NCBI GenBank assembly: GCA_937873135.1
Contig: CALMVQ010000120.1
Span: 88,414 to 152,413 of the forward strand
DNA from: an uncultured Scytonema sp.
Lineage (GTDB): Bacteria > Cyanobacteriota > Cyanobacteriia > Cyanobacteriales > Nostocaceae
Direction: 5' to 3'
DNA length: 64,000 nt
The notes under the pieces are model-generated. The model had not been told where the DNA came from. It did no database searches and saw only the letters and a list, made by a program, of their open reading frames with translations. Each line of letters opens with the position of its first letter. Within the stretch, counting starts at the first letter, position 1. Shown here piece by piece: positions 22,444-30,036 of this stretch. A program made the translations under genes and the position numbers.

Positions 22444-22695
22444 ACTGTATTTGCATTTATGAAGATAGTCATACAACATTCCTACATAATTTGTAAAATG
22501 CTGGCTAATGGAAGATTCGCTAATAGCTGAGGCAAGCGAAGGTCGATAATTTTCGGTACAATGTGGAGAGGCGATCGCGCTATTTGTAAATCCAGTTAAA
22601 AACAACTGATTCATCAAATTTAGTTTGATGAATCATTAAATAACTCAAAACTGTTGCCGCCGATTGCTCAAAAGTTCCCAGAATTTTTTGAGTTG

Positions 22696-23673
22696 ATGGA
22701 AATTGCAAAAAAGCGTTGGAAAATTCTTACGGGTATCGGTGCTGCTACACTTACATTGCTAGCAGGTGCAGGATACTGGTATGTCTTCATTGCGGGAGCA
22801 CCCCAGTTAGATCCACCACCAACAAATGTTGCTGGCAGTGAAATGACGTTTATGCTTGAAACTTTTAACAGCAAGGCAATGGGTGAGGTGCGGCGATATG
22901 GTGTCATTCTACCTCCCGATTACAATCACAATTCGAGCAAACGCTACCCCGTTATTTTTCTTTTGCATGGTGGACACGATGATGCACGCGCTTGGGTAGA
23001 CAAAATTGGCATTATTCCGGTATTAGTTCAACTCTACAAAAGTGGGAAATTACCGCCATCTATTGTGATTACACCAGATGGTAATGATAAACGTGGTTCC
23101 AGTCCTTTTTGGGACCCTGATTATTATGATGGACCTCACGGACAACTTAGTACCTTAATTGGTGAAGAGTTAGTAACTGTCGTGAAAACACGCTATCGTA
23201 CGTTGAATAAACCAGAATTTTGGGCAATGGGTGGACTCTCATCTGGTGCTTGGGGGGCTTTCAATATAGGGCTACGTCATCTCAATAACTTTAATGTTTT
23301 TTTCAGTCAGATCGGTTATTTTACTGATGATAGCGGACCCCAAAATAGTCCCCAAGTCTTTGTACAACAAATTCCCCCAAAACAACGTCAGGCCATACGT
23401 ATTTATCTAGATGCAGGACTTAATGATTTAGTTGGTGGCGAATTTCTCAATTCCAGCGAACGCTTCCATCAAACATTGAATAAACTGGGTATAAAAAACG
23501 TCTTTTATACGTATCCGGGCGGTCATGGGTTGTCTGGTCCCAACTATGGCTGGAATTACGACCACAAACATGCTGTAGATTCTCTCTCATATGTAGGTAA
23601 GCAGTTTAAAGAAGCAATGCAGCAGATCGATTCGGAGAAATTCAAAATTCCAAACTCAAAAAAACCCTTATAA
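22696..23673 (+). CDS. Membrane-anchored putative esterase (alpha/beta hydrolase)
   Basis: This is an esterase of the D-type (PF00756-like) family, anchored or exported through an N-terminal hydrophobic helix (ILTGIGAATLTLLAGAGYW). The hydrolase body has YPVIFLLHGG (oxyanion region), the nucleophile elbow GGLSSGAWG, an acid DAGLNDLVG and the catalytic His in YPGGHGLSG. The ATG at 22696 gives 325 residues; an upstream in-frame TTG at 22654 would add 14. Related enzymes include mycolyltransferase-like and feruloyl/enterochelin-type esterases, so the substrate is open. Confidence 0.85.
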   Translation: MEIAKKRWKILTGIGAATLTLLAGAGYWYVFIAGAPQLDPPPTNVAGSEMTFMLETFNSKAMGEVRRYGVILPPDYNHNSSKRYPVIFLLHGGHDDARAWVDKIGIIPVLVQLYKSGKLPPSIVITPDGNDKRGSSPFWDPDYYDGPHGQLSTLIGEELVTVVKTRYRTLNKPEFWAMGGLSSGAWGAFNIGLRHLNNFNVFFSQIGYFTDDSGPQNSPQVFVQQIPPKQRQAIRIYLDAGLNDLVGGEFLNSSERFHQTLNKLGIKNVFYTYPGGHGLSGPNYGWNYDHKHAVDSLSYVGKQFKEAMQQIDSEKFKIPNSKKPL

Positions 23674-23688
23674 ATGAGACTTAAAAGT

Positions 23689-23730
23689 GAGGTAAGGTAC
23701 GTTATTGTACAGAATAATGCACCTTACCTC
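23689..23730 (+). terminator. Hairpin after the esterase gene
   Basis: GAGGTAAGGT and ACCTTACCTC form a 10-bp perfect stem, extended by further partial pairing, 16 bp after the esterase stop. The following sequence (GATCTTTATATA) has only a weak T-run. Confidence 0.6.
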
Positions 23731-23906
23731 GATCTTTATATAGACTTAATGAAGGACTTGACGTGAAGTAAGTATTCTTAAGAAAATAGTGATAGCTGTT
23801 TTTAGCTCATGTGTAAAAAGAGAAGCATATCGTAAGTAGTGTAGGAAAATCCGCTATACCATTTCACGCTTGTTCCCGCTCCAACTCACTCCCTCTGCTT
23901 GCCTAT

Positions 23907-24878
23907 ATGCAGCTAAAACGCCTCACAAAATATGGCTTACCGCTCTTAGGACTGTTACTTTTCAGCCTCTCTGTATGGGCTATTAATAAACAACTGAAGC
24001 ACTATACCATCCCAGAAATTTGGCATAGTCTTAAGATTGCTCCTATTAATAGTTTACTGCTAGCACTGACATTTACAATCCTCAATTACTTAGTCTTAAC
24101 TACATATGATGTTTTAGCTTGCGGATACATTCGCCATCCTTTACCCTATCCAAAAATTGCTCTAACTGCGTTTACAAGCGCCGCAATTAGTAATACAGTT
24201 GGCTTCGCTTTGTTTACTGGAAGCGCTATTCGCTGTCGCTTATATGTACTTTGGGGCTTAACACCTGTTGAAATTGCCCAGATCATCGCCTTTACCAACT
24301 TAACCTTTTGGCTGGGACTAAGTGTAGTTGGTGGGGTCTTATTTTTAGTTGAGCCTCTAGCAATTCCCAAATTCTTCCATTTGCCTTTCACTTCAGTGCA
24401 TCCAATTGGAATCATTTTGCTAGCACTGAGTTGCGCTTATCTGTTAGCAAGTTTAGGGCTAAAGCGATCGCTGCGGATAGGTCGTTGGTCTTTTTCCATA
24501 CCTTCTTTTGATGTTGCTGTCCTACAGATTATCCTTTCTTCTATTGATTGGAGCATTGCTGTTGCAGCACTTTACGTCTTGCTACCATTATCCGCTAATT
24601 TATCATACTCAACCTTTTTCAGTATTTATCTACTCGGTCAAATTGCAGGACTCGTCAGTTACATTCCAGGTGGGTTAGGCGTGTTTGAGACAGTTTTACT
24701 GTTTCTCCTCTCGCAAACAATTCCTACGACTCAGATATTTATCGCCCTAATCCTCTACCGAGTTATCTACTATTTTATACCTTTAGGAATTGCTGCTTTA
24801 TTACTCGGGATACATGAAATCCAACAGCGTAAGTTAACTGTCTCGCCGCTTCACCCTAAGTCAAAAGTGAAAAGTTGA
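23907..24878 (+). CDS. Lysylphosphatidylglycerol-synthase-type transmembrane protein (UPF0104/DUF2156 N-terminal type)
   Basis: This polytopic inner-membrane protein of 323 residues has about seven to eight hydrophobic segments and matches the transmembrane (flippase-like) half of the MprF/YbhN family. Typical motifs are GYIRHPLPYPKIALTAFTSAAISNTVGFALFTGSAIRCRLY, with the conserved G.A.R.R..Y pattern, and YIPGGLGVFETVLL. No aminoacyl-transferase domain is attached, so transfer of lysine to lipid is not expected; lipid flipping is the usual inference. The gene stands alone. Confidence 0.85.
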   Translation: MQLKRLTKYGLPLLGLLLFSLSVWAINKQLKHYTIPEIWHSLKIAPINSLLLALTFTILNYLVLTTYDVLACGYIRHPLPYPKIALTAFTSAAISNTVGFALFTGSAIRCRLYVLWGLTPVEIAQIIAFTNLTFWLGLSVVGGVLFLVEPLAIPKFFHLPFTSVHPIGIILLALSCAYLLASLGLKRSLRIGRWSFSIPSFDVAVLQIILSSIDWSIAVAALYVLLPLSANLSYSTFFSIYLLGQIAGLVSYIPGGLGVFETVLLFLLSQTIPTTQIFIALILYRVIYYFIPLGIAALLLGIHEIQQRKLTVSPLHPKSKVKS

Positions 24879-25018: not shown

Positions 25019-25363
25019 TTAAGTTGTCTGCACTCGTAATCCAAAGTAAGTGAGAACTAACTCAGTTGAACCGTTGTTAACAACTTCGTGAACCTCTCCT
25101 CGTTCTACCGCTACGCAATTTCCTGGTAAAAGAGGGTATTCTTTGCTGTCAATATGAATAACACCAGAACCAGACTCGACAAAGAAAACCTCACACATAT
25201 CTTGATGAGCATGTGCTGCTGCAGTTTGTCCGGGGGCAAAACGTGCTTGAGAAAAGTTGGTGAGGTGAGGTAGATCACCCAAACGTAACATCACCTTTTT
25301 CTTAATCTCGGGGTTGTGAGAAACTGCTTCTTCAGGCAAATCGTTCAGAGAAATGAGTTTCAT
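25019..25363 (-). CDS. Cupin domain protein
   Basis: This small single-domain cupin (114 residues) has the first motif H.H......V..G as HAHQDMCEVFFVESGSG and the second as LLPGNCVAVERGEVHEVVN. Several metal-ligand positions (His, His, Glu, His) are present, so a metal-binding fold is likely. Its ATG overlaps the stop of the PlsY/PEP-synthase-like gene by 4 bp (ATGA), so the two are translationally coupled. A sensor or isomerase role in the same pathway is possible but not shown. Confidence 0.85.
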   Translation of the reverse strand: MKLISLNDLPEEAVSHNPEIKKKVMLRLGDLPHLTNFSQARFAPGQTAAAHAHQDMCEVFFVESGSGVIHIDSKEYPLLPGNCVAVERGEVHEVVNNGSTELVLTYFGLRVQTT

Positions 25364-28230
25364 CCTGGTCGCAAATCGTTAGATATCTCCACAATACCTT
25401 TATATCCATCAATCCGTACCTTCTGACCATCTTGTAAAAGCCATGTAGCATTCCTAACATCTGTAATAGCAGGAATACCATACTCCCGAGCTAGAATTGC
25501 ACCATGAGAAAGCCGTCCACCAACCTCTGAAATAAATCCTCCCGCTCTCATCAGGAAGGAAACCAAACTAATATCTGTATAAGGTACTACCAAAATGGTT
25601 TCTCGATCAATTTCTGGCAGAGCTTGTAAGTTTCGCCACACCTTTACCCGTCCTTCCACTTGACCGGGACTGGCGGGAATTCCTTGCAACATTTGATCGG
25701 GATAGAGGCTAGCAGTTCGCAAAGGTACTGTAAGAGAATTATTGCCATAGACTATTGGGGGTACTGGATTTTGCTGAGTATCTTTTGCTTTTTGCGATCG
25801 CCTCAGTTGTACTAAATCCTGCAAATGTTCTACAAACTCAGGCTCAAAACCTTCAACAAGACGCCGGACTTCATCCAACTCTAGAAAAAATATATCCCCA
25901 GGATGCTCAAGTAAGCCCGATTTTAACCAAACTTGCTCCAACGCCACAAAACACCAACGCAATTCAGCCTGGAATTTAGAATAAACCTCCGTAACCCGCC
26001 CTTGGAGATTCACACGTCTTTGTACAAATCCGACATTCCATCTTCCTTTGGTCTTTTTGTCTGTGGATGGTTCTCCTTGTATGAACTGTACAAACAACTG
26101 CTTGATTGCCTCTGGTTCTTCCTTCCAAGTCGGAACAGCAAGATCGCCCTCACTTAAATAAGCGTAACGGTGAAGCAATTTATCCAACTTTGTGAGAATT
26201 TCTTGACCCTGTGGTGTTTGTGCCAACTTTTCAAAGACTTGATCAGCAGTTGCCAGATCGGGTAGAACTTGCTGAGCAGTTACGGCTAAATCTTGAAGCG
26301 ATCGCACTACTGCCACTTCTGGTGTCAAATGGCGATCAACTTCCCAGAAAGTAACATGAAAAATTTTTTGTCGTAACTTCACACTCAAGGAAGCCAGAAT
26401 ATTATAGTAAGTCGCTTTCAGGAGTAACTTTCGGATAAAGTCTATCCTTGCTAACAACGAAGCGGGCTCTAAATCATCAACTAATTCTTGAGTGAACTGA
26501 GATAAGGCTGGAACAAACCGCCTGTGATAATCCCAGTTGAAGTCCGTTGCCAAACAAAATTCTCGCCCTACTAACCGTAGCATTCCTGGCAAATTCTGCA
26601 AAATTGTCTTCAAGGGTGGCTTCGCCAACTTACCTCCCTTAGTTAAAAAATTCAAACTTTCGGCTGGCAAACCCAGGCGGCAAAAAATTTCCCATAGTAG
26701 AGTGGCATTAAAGTAGACTCTTGAATAGTGCAACGTCGCTATTTGGTTGAAATCTAGCCCAACAGCACGTTCACCCAGTACCAAAGCAAAAATTCCTCCC
26801 CAAACACCATTAGTTGATGGTCGATTGATTGACCATGTGAGGGGATGAATTAATTGGGAGAAAGTTTCTGCCGCAATTTTACGTGTCCATATAGGTAATA
26901 GGGTGCTGATGGGTCTAACTTGCAAAACCCAAAGAGTTTGACCATCGTAACTCCACTCAATATCTTGAGGAATGCCGTGGTAACGTTCTTCTAAATGACG
27001 AGCTAAATATGCAACTTGCTTGATTAATGCTGGTGGCACTCGTCCCTCGCCCTCCAATTGCACACCCTGAAAATCTTCCGTCTCGACAACAAAAGCACGA
27101 TATTGCTCTGGTGTCACATGTCCAGAAACGACTTGAGTCGCTTTTCCGGGTAAGGCTTCAATGATGATTGTATCCCCTTGCTTGGTCATGGGGTCGCGAG
27201 TAAAGGCAACTCCAAAAAAGACACTTTGGACTTGTTGTTGAATCAGTACACCCATTCTCTGTTCATTGAGGTTGCGATCGCGTCGATACTGTACTGCGGT
27301 TGGATTGTTGTATGAAGCTTGGACTCTGGCGATTGCTTGTTGCAATCCGTGTTTAGTAGTCACGTGCAAAATTGTCTCGTACTGCCCTGCGGCAGAAGCA
27401 TGTTCTGTATCTTCTCCAATCGCGGAAGAACGCACCACAAGTGGGGATAACTTTGATGGTTGTAGAAATTCTATCAATGGTGCGGGGTCATCGTATGGGG
27501 CAAGAACCCATCCCTTGGGTACTGAATAACCCCATCGCTTCACTTCTGATAATCGAGCTGCTTTGTGTCCAATCAGCGCCGCATCCAAATCCTCATCAAG
27601 CGAGAGAATATCTTGGTTGCTGCGAAGAAATTGAAATACCCCTGCAGATGTTTGTACCTCTTTAACTGAGAGATTCAGATCTTTGGGCATGTTTTTGTAA
27701 ATCCAGCCCAGCAGCGCTGCTAAAGTAAGAGCCGCCAAGATTTTGGATGGATCTTCGATGTGTAAAAGAGCCACAATTAAGGGAAATAGAATCAAAACTC
27801 CAAATTTTGCCAACTGTCTGGAGCGCAGAATGGTAAAACTGGCACCAGTCAGCAAAAATACAAATACCGATGCTAGTGGATCGTGTACGCTAAATCCCCA
27901 AATGACACTTGTCGTACCAGTTCCTTTGCCTGTCGAGTATCGACCAATGACTACGGCTATTAGGGCAATCAGTTCCCAAGCCGATCCATATCCAAAAAAA
28001 GCACGGGCTAGTAAGACTGCGGCAATGCCTTTAAAAGCTTCAGAAAAAACTGCCAAAATTCCTACTAGTGTGCCACCTTGGTAGAAAGCCGCTGATACGC
28101 TGATGCTATCAGTATATAAATGTGCTAATTGCCGCTTATTTAGAAGCTGAGACATCCACGTAATCAGCGGTAATGCTCCTAATAGAGGACACACAATAAA
28201 AATAACTAAGATACCCCAGAATTGAAACAT
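25360..28230 (-). CDS. PlsY-like membrane domain fused to PEP-synthase/PPDK-like domains
   Basis: This 956-residue protein joins two activities. Residues 1 to about 200 are a polytopic membrane domain similar in layout to glycerol-3-phosphate acyltransferase PlsY (EAFKGIAAVLLAR; GRYSTGKGTGTTSV in place of the GGKG loop). Residues about 220-460 match the PEP/pyruvate-dikinase nucleotide-binding domain (IGHKAARLSEVKRWGYSVPKGW, VVRSSAIGED). A long middle region (about 470-860) is of unassigned function. The C-terminus has the swivelling phosphohistidine domain, with His at about 909 in GGRLSHGAILAREYGIP. The ATG at 28230 is preferred over a TTG at 28251. The fusion suggests ATP-driven phosphoryl chemistry at the membrane. 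It overlaps the cupin gene by 4 bp. Confidence 0.82.
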   Translation of the reverse strand: MFQFWGILVIFIVCPLLGALPLITWMSQLLNKRQLAHLYTDSISVSAAFYQGGTLVGILAVFSEAFKGIAAVLLARAFFGYGSAWELIALIAVVIGRYSTGKGTGTTSVIWGFSVHDPLASVFVFLLTGASFTILRSRQLAKFGVLILFPLIVALLHIEDPSKILAALTLAALLGWIYKNMPKDLNLSVKEVQTSAGVFQFLRSNQDILSLDEDLDAALIGHKAARLSEVKRWGYSVPKGWVLAPYDDPAPLIEFLQPSKLSPLVVRSSAIGEDTEHASAAGQYETILHVTTKHGLQQAIARVQASYNNPTAVQYRRDRNLNEQRMGVLIQQQVQSVFFGVAFTRDPMTKQGDTIIIEALPGKATQVVSGHVTPEQYRAFVVETEDFQGVQLEGEGRVPPALIKQVAYLARHLEERYHGIPQDIEWSYDGQTLWVLQVRPISTLLPIWTRKIAAETFSQLIHPLTWSINRPSTNGVWGGIFALVLGERAVGLDFNQIATLHYSRVYFNATLLWEIFCRLGLPAESLNFLTKGGKLAKPPLKTILQNLPGMLRLVGREFCLATDFNWDYHRRFVPALSQFTQELVDDLEPASLLARIDFIRKLLLKATYYNILASLSVKLRQKIFHVTFWEVDRHLTPEVAVVRSLQDLAVTAQQVLPDLATADQVFEKLAQTPQGQEILTKLDKLLHRYAYLSEGDLAVPTWKEEPEAIKQLFVQFIQGEPSTDKKTKGRWNVGFVQRRVNLQGRVTEVYSKFQAELRWCFVALEQVWLKSGLLEHPGDIFFLELDEVRRLVEGFEPEFVEHLQDLVQLRRSQKAKDTQQNPVPPIVYGNNSLTVPLRTASLYPDQMLQGIPASPGQVEGRVKVWRNLQALPEIDRETILVVPYTDISLVSFLMRAGGFISEVGGRLSHGAILAREYGIPAITDVRNATWLLQDGQKVRIDGYKGIVEISNDLRPG

Positions 28231-28630
28231 TTGCGATTCTTCATCAATCAAATGAAGGGTTTAGAACGTTGTACTTAGCTAATGTACACGCTACTTACAA
28301 TTTTGACGGTTAAGGAAGTTAGAAAATAAAAATTTATGTCTTTCGATATACTTGACATACTTACTCGTATAGAATAGAACTTCCCAAGGACTCTTTTCTC
28401 CAAAACAGTTTAGGGAGTTAAATGTAACGTTTCTTACCTGAGTTCGTGTGAGCCTTTAAAAAGGCGGAGTTATATGGATGTCAGGAATTTAAAACCATAG
28501 CAGTTCTCATTTGGCTCTAGAAATAAATGTAGAGACGTTACATGTAACGTCTCTACATTGCAAGCAGAGCGAGCGCTATATTGGCTTTAATGTTCCATTG
28601 AAACGGACACTTCAAATGTCTAATGTCTTC
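28231..28630. other. Non-coding gap with palindrome
   Basis: The stretch contains the 34-bp palindrome at 28526-28559 and an ATGTAACGTTTC half-unit near 28421. It should also hold the promoter for the PlsY fusion gene. No gene is supported. Confidence 0.5.
28526..28559. repeat. Perfect 34-bp palindrome
   Basis: AATGTAGAGACGTTACA is followed directly by its exact complement TGTAACGTCTCTACATT. This GTAGAGACGTTACA palindrome type is a familiar dispersed repeat in filamentous cyanobacteria. Confidence 0.9.
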
Positions 28631-29082: not shown

Positions 29083-30036
29083 ATGGTGGCAGTTATACTG
29101 GTAACAAGTATAGCGATTGTTGTCGGATTATGTGCGGCAATAGAGATAGGACTGCGTACAATTGGTTTTGGTAAACCGCTCATTTACATTGCTGATGAGC
29201 AAATTGGTTATATGTTAGCCCCTAATCAGTCTACTCGTCGTTTCGGTAATCGCATAGCAATTAATCAATATTCAATGCGAAGTGATCCGATACAGAAGAC
29301 GCTTTTACCCTCTACGCTTCGGGTACTCCTTTTAGGAGATTCAATCGCGAACGGCGGTTGGTGGACCGATCAAGCGTGGACAATTTCCAGTTTGATGAGC
29401 AGATCCTTAACACCAGTTGTTAGTCAGTACTTTACGAAAGTGGAGGTGTTAAATGCTTCAGCTAATTCATGGGGACCGAGAAATGAATTAGCTTATTTAC
29501 AGCAATTTGGTAATTTTCATTCCCAAGTCGTCGTGTTGTTGATTAATACCGATGATTTGTTTGCGCCGGCTCCCACTTCTTTACCAGTAGGACGCGATCG
29601 CAACTATCCAGATCGTCAACCTGCTATGGCATTGGTGGAAGCCTTCAACCGTTATATATCCAAGCCAAATCCAATACCAGAAATGAAAGCAGTTTATGAT
29701 GAAGCAGGCGATCGCGTTGGTTTTAATCTGGAAGCAATTAGTAAAATTCAAGCACTAACACATCAAGCTAACAGTCAATTTCTCCTGGTTATGACTCCCT
29801 TACTGCGAGAAATTGGCGAACCAGGATCTCGGGATTATGAAATGAAAGCACGTCAGCGTCTGAGTGAATTTTGTCAAGAACAAAAAATTTCGTATATAGA
29901 TTTTTTACCAGTATTTAACTCAAATTCTGACCCCAAAGCTTTGTATCAAGACCACATCCACCTTAACTTGCAAGGTAATCAGCTTGTGAGTCAGGCGATC
30001 AAGCGCTCAGTTCTAGAGCTATTACTATTAAAATAA
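29083..30036 (+). CDS. Membrane-anchored SGNH/GDSL hydrolase-like protein
   Basis: An N-terminal hydrophobic anchor (residues 2-24) is followed by an SGNH fold. The nucleophile Ser87 lies in VLLLGDSIANGG, the block III Asn is likely in NASANSWGPRNEL, and the catalytic pair is Asp290 and His293 in DHIHLNLQGNQL. GAGGAG precedes the ATG by 7 bases. It probably deacylates a polysaccharide, lipid or peptidoglycan substrate at the cell surface. Length of 317 residues is ordinary. Confidence 0.84.
   Translation: MVAVILVTSIAIVVGLCAAIEIGLRTIGFGKPLIYIADEQIGYMLAPNQSTRRFGNRIAINQYSMRSDPIQKTLLPSTLRVLLLGDSIANGGWWTDQAWTISSLMSRSLTPVVSQYFTKVEVLNASANSWGPRNELAYLQQFGNFHSQVVVLLINTDDLFAPAPTSLPVGRDRNYPDRQPAMALVEAFNRYISKPNPIPEMKAVYDEAGDRVGFNLEAISKIQALTHQANSQFLLVMTPLLREIGEPGSRDYEMKARQRLSEFCQEQKISYIDFLPVFNSNSDPKALYQDHIHLNLQGNQLVSQAIKRSVLELLLLK

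Follow-up and report, generated by a model that had tools for sequence, protein, structure and literature searches.

The locus considered here raises the question of what a single polypeptide may do when a membrane domain with the fold of the acyltransferase PlsY precedes a phosphohistidine dikinase of the rifampin phosphotransferase (Rph) kind. The gene lies in a 64,000-nucleotide stretch of DNA, referred to below as the window, from an uncultured Scytonema sp. (contig CALMVQ010000120.1, positions 88,414 to 152,413). A first-pass annotation described it as a PlsY-like domain fused to phosphoenolpyruvate (PEP) synthase-like catalysis and coupled to a cupin, and the open reading frames (ORFs), Pfam domains, and predicted structure confirm the fusion and its overlap with a cupin gene. 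The favored interpretation, to which we give a probability of about one half, is that the protein is a membrane-anchored small-molecule dikinase of the Rph kind that acts on a lipid-linked substrate. The gene and its domains are laid out as follows.

25360..28230, (−) strand: fusion protein, PlsY-fold membrane domain plus Rph-type dikinase (from the ATG start, orthologue starts, Pfam, and the structural model)
27694..28230, (−) strand: PlsY-like membrane domain, approximately residues 8-186 (PF02660; PlsY 5xj7, Z 18.1)
26890..27603, (−) strand: ATP-grasp domain, approximately residues 217-454, with K230, R274, E432, Q444, and R446 (PF01326; 5hv6_A, Z 19.5)
25927..26889, (−) strand: middle, putative substrate-binding domain, approximately residues 455-775 (corresponding in position to the rifampin-binding domain)
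25363..25926, (−) strand: linker and C-terminal swiveling phosphohistidine domain, approximately residues 776-963, with His916 (PF00391)

The open frame on this strand spans 25360-28251 (963 aa) and has TTG as its first codon, but the in-frame ATG at 28230 is the likelier start, because the orthologues L035 and L104 begin at the same methionine. Pfam matches in the protein, all above cut-off, are G3P_acyltransf PF02660 at residues 21-186 (50.9 bits, cut-off 24.1), PPDK_N PF01326 at residues 269-450 (138 bits), and PEP-utilizers PF00391 at residues 882-952 (73.5 bits). The phosphohistidine motif GGRLSHGAILAREYGIPA is unbroken in the window copy, as had been claimed. The PEP/pyruvate domain PF02896 gave no match in the fusion up to an E value of 0.1; as a control on its detection, the same library matched it in a neighboring protein of locus L137. 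Three named Rhizonema sequences are nearest to the window copy, at 94-96% identity, and form with it one clade (support 100) adjoining L104; these four sequences are referred to as the window's genus, which on this basis is probably Rhizonema. Rhizonema are lichen photobionts.

An AlphaFold2 model of the fusion, built with 67 aligned sequences, has a mean pLDDT (predicted local distance difference test) of 90.3 and a pTM (predicted template modeling score) of 0.79. Its residues 11-210 superpose on the PlsY crystal structure 5xj7 with a Z of 18.1 and a root mean square deviation (rmsd) of 3.0 Å over 183 residues. Structures were compared with VIA-align, which states that it tests mainly residues 212-960, and with Foldseek, and both list PlsY among their matches. 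Among 44 diverse orthologues, PF02660 is matched in 42, PPDK_N in 43, and PEP-utilizers in all 44 (E ≤ 0.001). The PlsY likeness is thus not a matter of chance, since it is seen both in 42/44 orthologues and in the comparison with PlsY crystals, and the earlier identification of the N terminus withstood the check by hidden Markov model (HMM). By sequence and model, ATP-grasp, middle, and C-terminal swiveling phosphohistidine domains follow the membrane domain. Residues 209-957 match the rifampin phosphotransferase structure 5hv3 with a Z of 36.1 over 646 aligned residues and an rmsd of 21.4, a large value that would fit shifted domains; pyruvate phosphate dikinase (PPDK) 1kbl is matched by the ATP and His parts of the model, with a Z of 29.6 and an rmsd of 3.0 over 346 residues.

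Sequence comparison and the model together indicate that the catalytic half is of the Rph kind rather than of the PEP synthase/PPDK kind. In a profile-profile comparison it matched three proteins of Rph architecture, one annotated rph and two PEP synthase, with an E value of 3e-59 over 699 columns. As described in the Rph study (PMC4844700), the order in Rph is ATP-grasp, substrate domain, and then a C-terminal phosphohistidine domain. The equivalents of Rph Lys22, Arg117, Glu297, Arg311, and His825 in the window copy are K230, R274, E432, R446, and H916, all retained; the roles of Lys22, Arg117, Glu297, and His825 are those given in that paper, and the equivalence of Arg311 with R446 is taken from the alignment. 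Outside the window's genus, K230 is kept in 141/143 orthologues, R274 in 143/143, and H916 in 140/143. The scores against NCBIfam are far under each curated cut-off (25 of 27 families listed): the rifampin phosphotransferase model gives 211.7 bits and does not reach its cut-off of 999, PEP synthase gives 158.7 (cut-off 739.75), and PigC and RedH give 183.4 and 175.9 bits over the dikinase part (cut-offs 1300 and 1350). Membership in a broad group of Rph-type small-molecule dikinases fits these sequence and structural comparisons; the Rph paper describes a large small-molecule dikinase group with mostly unexplored substrates (PMC4844700).

The membrane domain can be compared with Aquifex PlsY at the level of individual residues. 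According to the PlsY study (PMC5700162), Ser35, Arg45, Lys104, and Asn180 form the phosphate clamp for glycerol-3-phosphate (G3P), whose 2-OH is bound by Ser142 and His177, and the acyl-phosphate is held by His92, Thr41, and the backbone of Lys104-Ala107. The residues were mapped by HMM alignment and counted over the 143 orthologues outside the window's genus; registers from a global MAFFT alignment with PlsY and from hhalign against one PlsY sequence (probability 84%) were distrusted and not used. Ser35 corresponds to Thr47 in 140/143 and Thr41 to Ser53 in 125/143, the clamp residue Arg45 is replaced by Tyr57 in the window copy and 136/143 others, and the acyl-phosphate contact His92 by Arg104 in the window copy and all 143 others. 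PlsY motif 3 is not visible in the fusion, the HMM alignment stopping before it. The family has, instead, a conserved set of its own, G46, T47, N49, Y57, H58, R104, T114, and N115, each present in at least 136/143. The motif-1 loop reads YTDSISVSAAFYQGG in the window copy and GTGNISVSAAFYHGG in the family form, and the glycine-rich stretch reads GRYSTGKGTGTTS in the window copy and GRYWxGKGAGTTN in the family. From these residues it appears that the G3P pocket may have been rebuilt, not merely lost, and that the acyl-phosphate hole may persist in an altered form, with Ser53 for Thr41, the invariant Arg104 for His92, and the glycine-rich loop.

In the mechanism that we favor, by analogy with Rph, the ATP-grasp domain would load His916 with the β-phosphate of ATP, with release of AMP and Pi, and the phosphorylated His916 would then swing to the middle domain. 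A small or lipid-linked acceptor would be phosphorylated at the cytosolic face of the membrane, and the PlsY-fold domain might bind the lipid part of the substrate or product, the lipid itself being a guess. The PlsY paper places the active site of PlsY toward the cytoplasmic side, which suits a cytosolic dikinase. In this family a phosphohistidine dikinase is joined to the fold of an acyl-phosphate-route enzyme, which has, by residue conservation, an apparently new pocket. We know of no dikinase shown to act on membrane lipids, and if the fusion does so, it would reveal a gap in the known envelope-lipid chemistry of cyanobacteria.

Several observations weigh against this interpretation. The Arg666-Glu667...Lys670 block of Rph is not clearly conserved: R746 and K750 are possible matches of Arg666 and Lys670, there is no counterpart of Glu667, the alignments around the block are insecure, and the window copy has Q750. 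In the membrane domain the register of Lys104 is ambiguous, its counterpart being either Ala111 or position 109 (K, R, or Q). The catalytic His is replaced by Gln in 3/147 full-length members (L020, L119, and L151), and no neighboring gene common beyond Nostocales-type genomes pins down a substrate. The window copy itself departs from the family at 27/212 near-invariant columns, with the middle domain accounting for 16, and its substrate may have changed or been lost.

By region, the departures of the window copy amount to 6/37 columns in the PlsY-like domain, 1/3 in the linker, 2/61 in the ATP-grasp domain, 16/74 in the middle domain, and 2/37 in the swivel domain. At 223 columns that are near-invariant in 37 background orthologues, the window copy shows 29 departures and the four sequences of its genus (window and L033-L035) 29-33, mostly in motif 1 and the middle domain, whereas 133 other rows have a median of 1 and at most 4. 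It should be noted that 37 of those 133 rows defined the columns and that nine divergent rows and L020 (4-123 departures) were omitted, so that 29-33 departures are unusual only in relation to the 133 remaining rows. All four sequences share the middle-domain changes VIPG to TFSQ at 463-466, C481N, and K750Q and the swivel-domain change W896L, whereas motif-1 residues 46-49 vary among them (YTDS, YTYD, YTDN, and SADN). The ratio of nonsynonymous to synonymous differences (pN/pS; uncorrected pairwise sums) for residues 40-66 is 0.77 in the four sequences of the window's genus versus 0.11 in five Fischerella/Chlorogloeopsis-type rows; in the window's genus it is 0.20 for the ATP-grasp, 0.24 for the middle, and 0.16 for the swivel domain. 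The motif-2 value depends on very few changes. Our reading is that in this genus constraint on the PlsY-like pocket has probably been relaxed and that the acceptor site has shifted or is failing, with the ATP and phosphohistidine parts kept, so that the PlsY-fold domain may there act mainly as an anchor.

Other unusual copies were seen. L119 and L151 (genomes G058 and G211) are divergent fusions that lack the ATP-site Lys, the catalytic His, and the greater part of motif 1. L119 is followed directly downstream by two genes, one for a PMT-type protein and then kaiA, and this fusion is likely a pseudoenzyme beside a clock gene. L020 (G091) has H916Q together with 37 departures at near-invariant columns and seems to represent a second lineage that is losing activity.

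The alternative that survives best, although on balance we consider it somewhat unlikely, is that the PlsY-fold domain does no more than anchor the protein in the membrane or act as a sensor and that the dikinase phosphorylates a soluble metabolite. The replacement of G3P-clamp residues throughout the family, the loss of most of motif 1 in L119 and L151, and the high pN/pS of motif 1 in the window's genus in comparison with 0.16-0.24 in the other domains are in its favor. A mere anchor would, however, have no need of the family's own eight residues, from G46 to N115, which outside the window's genus are conserved almost throughout.

It is doubtful that the protein is instead a phosphorylate-then-acylate enzyme, in which the dikinase would make a phosphorylated acceptor that the PlsY-like domain would then acylate from acyl-phosphate to give an unusual lipid. 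The partial retention of the acyl-phosphate side and the conserved rebuilding of the acceptor clamp would suit such a reaction, and PlsY itself, according to PMC5700162, acylates a phosphorylated acceptor, G3P, with acyl-phosphate as the donor; but motif 3 is not visible, Arg45 is absent, the acyl-phosphate-contacting His92 is replaced, no acceptor is known, and the PlsY-like site decays in the window's genus. Were this doubtful scheme correct, a single-chain synthase would yield an undescribed class of cyanobacterial lipid, the SGNH hydrolase described below might trim or remodel the product in the envelope, and the window's genus would be losing that lipid.

A genuine G3P acyltransferase joined to a kinase is very improbable. 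The Pfam name and the fold point to it, and the first-pass annotation had called the membrane part acyltransferase-type, but as an activity this does not hold: the clamp Arg and the acyl-phosphate His are replaced family-wide, motif 3 is not visible, motif 1 is degraded further in the window copy, and the genome encodes a separate full PlsY (182.8 bits). At the residue level this candidate is rejected; the PlsY-like domain is, as judged from its sequence, not a G3P acyltransferase, and it would make no lysophosphatidic acid because the G3P clamp is gone.

A membrane-bound PEP synthase or PPDK has the least to recommend it: the ATP-grasp and His domains are common to both, and relatives are frequently annotated PEP synthase among the matches listed, but this identity is rejected because PF02896 was not found and because, as in Rph (PMC4844700), the protein ends with its phosphohistidine domain, and the NCBIfam score also speaks against it.

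The fusion is conserved within the phylum. Of 292 genomes sampled there, 120 give some match at an E value of 1e-10 and 84, read by hand, carry the fusion, which is present in 32/32 sampled genomes of the window's family (in G074 across two contig ends) and in 4/4 of the window's genus. The joining of a PlsY-like part to ATP-grasp and phosphohistidine domains therefore extends across the cyanobacteria, with one split case elsewhere (L146 of G215), in which adjacent ORFs of 186 and 809 aa lie 2 bp apart. Over 44 rows (946 pairs), orthologue distances computed from the PlsY-like domain correlate with those from the dikinase, with r = 0.80 for the ATP-grasp, 0.72 for the middle, and 0.69 for the swivel part, and those of the dikinase parts among themselves with r of 0.75-0.81. 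This matches the expectation for a single inherited fusion, and one old, vertically inherited fusion fits the sequence data. In a plasmid collection 311 records matched, and none of the 30 rows listed covers 80% of the query. A second, shorter copy in G170 (L144, C2) encodes 591 aa and matches only fusion residues 8-446, the PlsY-like and ATP-grasp parts. Among the papers listed in literature searches, two of which listed 20 of 33 and 20 of 247 and whose scope left out most subscription journals, none dealt with the fusion. Its parts are known, and the domain combination may already appear in public automatic annotation; as far as these searches reach, it is uncharacterized.

Two neighboring genes recur beside the fusion.

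25019..25363, (−) strand: small cupin, sharing 4 bp with the fusion gene (Cupin_2 PF07883)
29083..30036, (+) strand: divergent SGNH/GDSL hydrolase with a hydrophobic N terminus (PF13472; co-occurrence with the fusion)

The cupin ORF (114 aa; 57.3 bits, cut-off 27.2) shares four base pairs, ATGA, with the stop end of the fusion, so that the overlap first reported is real, and its sequence shows HxHx4E and HxxxN, which we take to be the cupin metal-site pattern. Locus counts refer to a named set, the best 80 of 211 candidates, which is therefore skewed to close relatives; L028/L115, L031/L133, and L017/L153 were each fetched twice from the same genome, and some other genomes may repeat named ones. 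A cupin is near the fusion in 45 of the 79 named loci with enough downstream sequence (three of the 45 in two pieces, frameshift-like) and within 30 bp in 41/79, but in 0/39 loci outside the named set. Genome-wide it occurs in 20/292 genomes, 19 of which have the fusion, and within the order in 15/73 fusion carriers versus 0/10 of the non-carriers listed (p 0.20), so that co-occurrence does not establish a partnership. The proposed coupling is local; the cupin is a local partner, and as an obligate partner it is rejected on its absence from the 39 other loci and its presence in only 20/292 genomes.

The SGNH hydrolase is found in 56 of the 74 named loci whose upstream sequence is long enough, encoded on the opposite strand in every case with listed ORFs, and in 0/37 such loci outside the named set. 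It is present in 62/292 genomes, of which 60 carry the fusion; in the order it occurs in 50/73 fusion carriers versus 2/10 non-carriers listed (Fisher p 0.005, phylogeny ignored). It is the most consistent partner and a plausible envelope partner. As controls, an MprF-like flippase occurs within the order in 30/73 fusion carriers versus 8/10 non-carriers listed (p 0.04) and an esterase in 8/73 versus 1/10. The flippase and esterase adjacent in the window are thus unsupported as partners, the flippase being if anything rarer in carriers. All of these tests ignore phylogeny and have no more than 10 genomes of the order without the fusion for comparison, the no-match genomes being those listed, sorted by kinship; the E limits were 1e-15 for the cupin and 1e-25 for the others. 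In the window the putative esterase adjoins an MprF-type flippase domain at 22654-24878. Similar pairs with little distance between them are found in G125, G143, G167, and G191, and the genome of the window has a second such pair (C140).

Outside Nostocales-type genomes no general conserved neighbor of the fusion was found. A PMT-type glycosyltransferase is encoded immediately downstream in L119, L125, and L128 by Pfam, and L151 looks similar by sequence; in L115 the gene in that position encodes a diacylglycerol kinase. In two genomes of one genus a gene for a 718-aa PEP-synthase-like protein converges on the fusion gene (L137, 3558-5711; L121, 10444-12600), and PF02896 was matched in the L137 protein, the only copy scanned. 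The 64-kb window contains no tRNA and no Rfam match at the gathering cut-off.

Among known systems, the prodigiosin ligases PigC and RedH match over the dikinase part, far below the cut-offs of their models, which to our knowledge have no PlsY-like domain. PEP synthase and PPDK share the ATP-grasp and phosphohistidine domains with the fusion, but in the fusion the His domain is at the C terminus and the PEP/pyruvate domain was not found. PlsY (5XJ5-9) is alike in its membrane fold, in the GxGN and glycine-rich loops of the family, and in a PF02660 match above cut-off, whereas the fusion differs in having Tyr for Arg45, Arg for His92, no visible motif 3, and an attached dikinase, the window copy being in addition without GTGN. 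Rph (e.g. 5FBS and 5HV3) resembles the fusion in domain order, ATP-site residues, and fold, but the fusion has an N-terminal PlsY-fold membrane domain and a middle domain that is shorter and diverged.

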